Positions 51,525 to 51,684 of a DNA stretch of 64,000 nucleotides are shown here, in pieces. Within the stretch, counting starts at the first letter, position 1. Each line of letters begins with the position of its first letter. The notes under the pieces were generated by a model. The model saw nothing but the letters and a program-made list of their open reading frames with translations, did no database searches and was not told where the DNA came from. Position numbers and translations under genes: made by a program. This DNA is from Helcobacillus massiliensis. GTDB lineage: Bacteria; Actinomycetota; Actinomycetes; Actinomycetales; Dermabacteraceae. The stretch is from assembly GCF_014191425.1 (NCBI RefSeq), contig NZ_JACHWP010000001.1, forward strand, positions 806,001 to 870,000, written 5' to 3'.

Positions 51525-51530
51525 GGTGTG

Positions 51531-51607
51531 GTCCTCAACGTCGATGTGATCAGTCGCCGGGCATGAGGGGCCTCCGCGACGAGGACCCGGCGTCAGGACT
51601 CGTCGCG
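51531..51607 (-). promoter_or_regulatory. leuA attenuator (alternative hairpin versus masked ribosome site)
   Basis: Hairpin A: CGCGACGAG (reverse strand, 51607-51599, the last leader codons) pairs perfectly with CTCGTCGCG (51583-51575). Alternative: GTCCTC (51586-51581) pairs with the leuA ribosome site GAGGAC (51536-51531). The two share 51583-51581, so they exclude each other. A further stem CGCCGGG/CCCGGCG (51592-51586 with 51561-51555) also conflicts with A topologically. No T-run, so control is more likely translational. Confidence 0.6.
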
Positions 51608-51649
51608 GCGGATAAGCAGGAGGTCCGCACGGCGGTTGAGAAGCAGCAT
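51593..51649 (-). CDS. leuA leader peptide (Leu-rich)
   Basis: 18 codons: [18 protein letters not shown], then TGA. Six of 18 residues are Leu in two triplets (CTG CTT CTC and CTC CTG CTT). TAGACT (RC of 51657-51662) ends exactly 7 nt before its ATG, with TTCACA 16 bp further up, so the transcript is probably leaderless and begins with this peptide. Too short for ordinary gene calling. Leucine leader control of leuA is known or predicted in other actinobacteria. Confidence 0.8.
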
Positions 51650-51656
51650 GGCCCCG

Positions 51657-51684
51657 AGTCTACGCGCCTGTCTCTGACTGTGAA
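51657..51684 (-). promoter_or_regulatory. Promoter of leader peptide-leuA-recO-uppS
   Basis: -10 TAGACT (RC 51657-51662) and -35-like TTCACA (RC 51679-51684), 16-bp spacer. It lies just past the era stop, separating leuA from the upstream HIT-to-era operon. Confidence 0.6.

Follow-up and report, generated by a model that had tools for sequence, protein, structure and literature searches.

A member of the actinobacterial LEU element before leuA: a Leu-rich leader ORF with a conserved pseudoknot and probable control of leuA translation

Introduction

The leuA gene of the window (the whole stretch of DNA analysed here, 64 kb) is preceded by a short leucine-rich leader which is a member of the LEU element, already described in Actinobacteria in 2005 (PMC1262725), and not a new kind of leader. 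This element probably combines a leaderless Leu-rich ORF with a pseudoknotted RNA controlling leuA translation, a ribosome stalled on the Leu codons freeing the leuA ribosome site. As the available text of Seliverstov et al. (2005) has it, leuA is preceded in the LEU element by a leader ORF containing a run of Leu codons, and the RNA forms a pseudoknot as well as a base stem in which Leu codons pair with the ribosome site (PMC1262725). The same text favoured the binding of a regulatory protein, for which a helicase of the ML1624 type was proposed, and left the mechanism open (PMC1262725). The actinobacterial group concerned includes industrial amino-acid producers.

The leader ORF and its promoter

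The features of the leader region are the following:
51593..51649, minus strand: leader ORF, probably leaderless (sequence; leader peptides conserved at 184 leuA loci)
49716..51524, minus strand: leuA, 2-isopropylmalate synthase (NCBIfam TIGR00970 and NF002991)
51657..51684, minus strand: promoter-like TTCACA-16-TAGACT (consensus scan 9/12, 0.1 expected)
51638..51646, minus strand: extra Leu box, codons 2-4 (CTG CTT CTC), apparently lineage-specific, since two full Leu triplets are found in no other of the 184 leaders
51614..51622, minus strand: core Leu run, codons 10-12 (CTC CTG CTT), matched in the alignment by the Leu runs of all relatives

As read from the sequence, the leader extends from 51649 to 51593 on the minus strand and has 18 codons, six of them for Leu, with its stop 68 nt upstream of the leuA ATG (51524); the preliminary description, made from the letters of the window, had this right. 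Codons 1-9, from 51649 onward, are ATG CTG CTT CTC AAC CGC CGT GCG GAC, and codons 10-18 with the stop, ending at 51593, are CTC CTG CTT ATC CGC CGC GAC GAG TCC TGA. The leader looks like an eight-codon unit occurring twice (as LLLNRRAD, then LLLIRRDE), a layout that suggests a duplication. The identity of leuA is based on a score of 859 bits of the LeuA protein against TIGR00970 (cut-off 697), and the gene has era before it and recO after it.

The TAGACT hexamer of the promoter-like site stops 7 nt short of the leader ATG, so the transcript would begin at the ATG or adjoining it, the position proposed before from the promoter. Related to this, a TANNNT motif lies 6-9 nt upstream of the leader start in 172 of the 184 leaders, a count that is partly circular because TANNNT helped to choose the start. 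Three genomes of the window's family (G005, G010 and G012, with loci L020, L018 and L019, respectively) have no LEU element; there the leuA ATG occupies the position of the leader ATG in the relative G008, the promoter resembles that of G008, and leuA is apparently leaderless itself. Taken together with the promoter spacing, these comparisons suggest that the leader transcript probably begins at the leader start codon, that is, leaderless. It has been reported that LeuL1 from S. lividans is transcribed leaderless (PMC8079986). A scan of the stretch between leader and leuA found no terminator-like site and no classical hairpin with T-run of the trp/leu type, in agreement with the lack of a T-run noted previously.

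Identity and distribution of the element

Two covariance models were used: R1, built from 29 distant leaders with the window included, and R2, from which the window's family was left out altogether. The match of R2 to the window leader (E 7.6e-10) is the only clear one within the 64 kb, and the second best (E 0.035) falls on this very hairpin, read on the opposite strand. R1 finds a match in 258 of the 297 genomes of the order and in 18 of 149 genomes sampled across the phylum, 13 of these 18 belonging to the window's class. Some weak covariance matches (L247, L251, L258-L261) were judged false, as they are without a Leu-run leader ORF at promoter distance. An Rfam search at the gathering score and up to E 5 gave no family matching the window.

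Loci anchored on LeuA were collected from 39 related genomes, 80 named genome records (among them Brachybacterium, Dermabacter, Demequina, Glutamicibacter, Arthrobacter, Microbacteriaceae and Amycolatopsis) and 128 genomes of the class, and script-based annotation yielded 184 leuA leaders. CTT codons are favoured in the leaders. Brachybacterium and Dermabacter are the closest named relatives of the window. Across the class, the 184 leaders follow the pattern LLL(L)-x-[RCS]-R in their peptides, and the hairpin P2 and the pseudoknot helix P3 lie at the same positions in them. The window's leader has three traits of the LEU element: it lies directly upstream of a TIGR00970 gene at 68 nt from stop to ATG, it carries a Leu-codon run (6 Leu in 18 codons) whose core aligns with relatives, and it has the conserved pseudoknot (P2 of 10 bp and P3 of 8 bp, both backed across relatives). 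The outcome of the proposed check for relatives lacking the Leu codons and arms favours the finding.

Two variants were also observed. The leader of genome G007 (L005/L229), MSTRRRRRLLRRRVGA, contains just two Leu codons and retains hairpin and pseudoknot. In one family of the class (L191, L193, L196 and L198) the leader before leuA ends in LLLLTRP or LLLLSRP, unlike the common pattern, and may be a different leader type.

Helices and competing pairings

Four helices (P1-P4) are considered, and their strands are located as follows:
51599..51608, minus strand: P2 hairpin 5' arm CCGCGACGAG (97.9% of cells paired, 29 leaders)
51574..51583, minus strand: P2 hairpin 3' arm CTCGTCGCGG (same alignment evidence as the 5' arm)
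51585..51592, minus strand: P3 pseudoknot 5' strand CGCCGGGT, in the hairpin loop (own-vs-swapped Z; window duplex -17.6 kcal/mol)
51555..51562, minus strand: P3 pseudoknot 3' strand GCCCGGCG (duplex energy and own-vs-swapped test)
51580..51587, minus strand: P4 anti-ribosome-site strand GGTCCTCG, also GGUCCUCG (own-vs-swapped Z; window duplex -16.4 kcal/mol)
51530..51537, minus strand: leuA ribosome site with P4 partner TGAGGACC (sequence; own-vs-swapped test)
51635..51642, minus strand: P1 strand TTCTCAAC, also UUCUCAAC, codons 3-5 (8 contiguous pairs, -11.0 kcal/mol)

P2, formed by the last leader codons, has 10 perfect pairs in the window (51608-51599 with 51583-51574); a perfect hairpin at this place had been noted with 9 bp, so that hairpin and perfect pairing stand and the length does not. 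It is near-universal, and 5 of its 10 pairs are changed on both sides among the 29 leaders. The conserved P3 strand pair is CGCCGGGU/GCCCGGCG. A count of P3 pairs on the plain MAFFT alignment was dropped: the strands were misaligned there, with 33% of cells paired, and therefore an own-vs-swapped test was used in its place. In this test the strand of each leader is paired with its own partner and with the partners of other species (20,000 permutations). For P3, narrowed windows gave Z 4.7 (30 leaders below 75% identity) and 10 (109 leaders), and whole-loop windows gave Z 1.8 and 7.5, so that Z depends on the windows chosen.

The P4 strand contains GGUCCUC (51587-51581), the exact complement of GAGGACC (51536-51530). 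This is the third arm already described, in which the 3' side of the hairpin (GTCCTC) can pair with GAGGAC at the ribosome site. The own-vs-swapped test backs P4 with Z 4.0 in 31 distant leaders (3/20000) and 7.2 in 110 leaders, and of the 31 junctions compared, that of the window itself pairs best with the window's ribosome site. As controls, other strands were set against the ribosome site, with Z from -1.1 to 1.7 in sets of at least 30 leaders; one control reached Z 2.5 in a set of 10 leaders, and for this reason that set was not relied on. A first run with 34 leaders, mostly of one order, had given weak values for P4 (Z 1.4-2.0) and similar ones for P1 (Z 1.9-2.0), and the wider set changed the picture. 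The P4 strand (51587-51580) straddles the end of the P3 strand (51592-51585) and the start of the P2 3' arm (51583-51574), and therefore the formation of P2 and P3 conceals it.

The partner of P1 is GTTGAGGA, also GUUGAGGA, at 51539-51532, overlapping the leuA ribosome site. Denser leader sets gave Z 2.8 to 5.3 for P1, and in the most distant set there was no excess (Z 0.4 to 0.7, with 0.4 for the 31 leaders). Related sequences are present in the denser sets, so that the size of their Z values cannot be read as independent evidence. The window's core Leu run pairs weakly with the ribosome site (-6.5 kcal/mol) compared with the early Leu box (-11.0), which makes P1 through the core run untenable as sole lock in the window. 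From sequence and comparison, the leader ORF, the position of its promoter, P2, P3 and P4 are shown, P1 less firmly.

The openness of the ribosome site was also modelled, using the ribosome footprint as a mask in a pseudoknot-free model in which P3 cannot form. In 70 leaders it was 0.255 in the free RNA, 0.386 when a stalled ribosome occupied the first Leu codon of the core run, and 0.301 when it stood at the stop; the pattern is absent from dinucleotide-shuffled leaders (0.352, 0.364 and 0.375, respectively). The direction is the same over 110 leaders, with p-values that ignore relatedness. For the window alone, the pseudoknot-free model gave no change (0.41 free, 0.42 stalled, 0.40 stop). 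Across relatives, the model has the ribosome site concealed as long as the RNA is free and exposed once a ribosome stalls on the Leu codons.

LEU elements before other genes

Model R1 also finds the LEU element before leuC, leuB-ilvE, leuA paralogues and an MFS transporter. The leuC elements (eight loci of one family: L222, L231, L235, L236, L256, L257, L262 and L263) keep Leu runs, and at L222 leuC is followed by leuD. The leuB-ilvE elements come from ten loci of two families (L221, L223, L240, L245, L246, L248 and L252-L255), ilvE being confirmed at L221 and L223. Their leaders read VVILI, VLLI, LVIL, ALII and similar, with an unchanged RNA core. Ile occurs in the four-codon window of 9 of the 10 leuB-ilvE leaders against 20 of the 184 at leuA (Fisher 1e-7), and Val in 8 of 10 against 23 of 184; relatedness makes the Fisher values too strong, and since only two families are involved, few independent events are represented. 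IlvE is the branched-chain aminotransferase, which makes Leu, Ile and Val. This codon change is the best evidence in this analysis favouring that the leader codons are read, and the mixture of Val, Leu and Ile favours codon sensing over the protein binding of the 2005 work. Between the LEU element and leuB, L221 (leuB at 834) and L223 have in common a small ORF, RQALQESMDR.

The elements at the MFS transporter are LEU-like and were found at two loci (L249 and L250), with the leaders MPQQLLLCCRSRC and MTEWLILRRRVRT. Upstream of the leader, a sequence like CTACTTGTCTGAGRAGTTGTG is common to LEU-element promoters at leuA paralogues and the MFS transporter in different families (L224, L225, L238, L244, L249 and L250); it is possibly a common promoter or regulator site. 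A literature search that did not extend to most subscription journals found no earlier reports of LEU elements at these extra sites, and the elements at leuC(D), leuB-ilvE, leuA paralogues and the MFS transporter are new in this analysis. In this way leuC(D), leuB-ilvE and the transporter are added as likely members of one leucine/branched-chain regulon.

Proposed regulation of leuA

We infer stalling, the direction of control and an effect on translation rather than on Rho-dependent termination. When leucine is plentiful, ribosomes would run through the leader and leave the leuA ribosome site masked, by P1 in the free RNA or by P4 after the opening of P2. Under a shortage of Leu-tRNA, a ribosome would stall on the leader Leu codons and cover the P1 strand, letting P2 and P3 form; both together would lock away the P4 strand, leaving the ribosome site free and leuA translated. 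As a counterpoint, P3 (-17.6 kcal/mol) and P4 (-16.4) are about equal in the window, and P4 therefore need not win when P2 is blocked. In a (p)ppGpp-null strain of C. glutamicum, total starvation for 5 min raises leuA and leuL (PMC6892785).

The previous proposal that a Leu leader controls the leuA ribosome site is probably correct; its mechanism was incomplete, and the present one is richer. The conserved pseudoknot and the stem between Leu codons and ribosome site had been overlooked; any switch has to involve the two of them. Stalling had been placed on the early Leu codons: the Leu sensing run itself is retained here, but the conserved run is that of codons 10-12, codons 2-4 being apparently a lineage-specific extra. 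Masking by ribosomes that reach the stop is less clean than had been supposed, as a ribosome on the stop codon itself covers part of the masking strand.

Other explanations have to be considered. It is unlikely that the ribosome controls transcription through Rho working on the untranslated region that follows the leader. In one review the leuL leader of C. glutamicum is regarded as attenuating transcription (PMC8709942), and the window has no intrinsic terminator, so transcriptional control would need Rho; against this, the ribosome site covaries with one upstream strand, probably two, which indicates translational control, beside which Rho could act as a second layer. The view preferred in 2005, in which the element is the binding site of a regulatory protein and the peptide is incidental, seems to us more doubtful still. 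It would agree with the strong sequence conservation of the GCCGCG core of the element and with leader mutations from S. coelicolor whose effects were reported to be at odds with classical attenuation (Craster 1999, cited in the available text of PMC1262725), but at 184 loci the Leu run is kept in the reading frame of a start codon that lies at promoter distance, and a protein site would not need the run to become Val/Leu/Ile before leuB-ilvE with the core unchanged.

It is very hard to credit that the leaderless ORF merely sets basal translation or coupling, without leucine sensing. The three family genomes where leuA is directly leaderless mean that the element is dispensable there, whereas across the class the Leu codons, the pseudoknot and the strands competing for the ribosome site are retained. 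Returning to translational control by stalling on Leu codons, a broader version of it has an even chance of being right: the LEU element would be a portable translational branched-chain sensor, with an ON-state pseudoknot whose P3/P2 junction locks the anti-ribosome-site strand and a codon run tuned to the product of the controlled gene (Leu for leuA and leuCD; Val/Leu/Ile for leuB-ilvE), with a further copy at the MFS transporter, and the window would be a variant whose second Leu box took over the ribosome-site stem. The supported helices, the natural switch of codons before leuB-ilvE and the close relatives that lack the element make the LEU mechanism testable by few reporter constructs.

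Comparison with known systems

The attenuators of the E. coli leu/trp type (Rfam RF00512 and RF00513) and the window both have a leader peptide with a codon run and competing helices; the former use an intrinsic terminator, whereas the window has none and matches no Rfam family. Mycobacterial attenuators of cysteine genes with polycysteine leaderless ORFs were reportedly described by Canestrari et al. in 2020, and a ribosome stalled on the codons of the limiting amino acid is said to free a sequestered ribosome site in them. We know of no conserved pseudoknot in those attenuators. A leaderless short ORF is present in both cases, a likeness in working and not a tested membership.

The leuL and LeuL1 leaders from Corynebacterium and Streptomyces agree with the window in position and peptide pattern (MTSRANLLLLRRGGSQRS, MNRANLLLLRRGGSQA, MRFGLLLLSCRGEGL), and published leaders from S. 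lividans, C. glutamicum and C. diphtheriae show this pattern. They have been described as attenuators by analogy, and the window leader differs from them in having two Leu boxes.

The closest system is the LEU element itself. The available text of the 2005 description (PMC1262725) has in common with the window the leader ORF with a Leu run, the pseudoknot, the absence of an intrinsic terminator, the gene leuA and, less firmly for the window, the stem between Leu codons and ribosome site. The P4 pairing of this analysis is absent from that text, figures aside. Compared with the element as set out there, the ribosome-site stem of the window uses the extra upstream Leu box instead of the conserved run.
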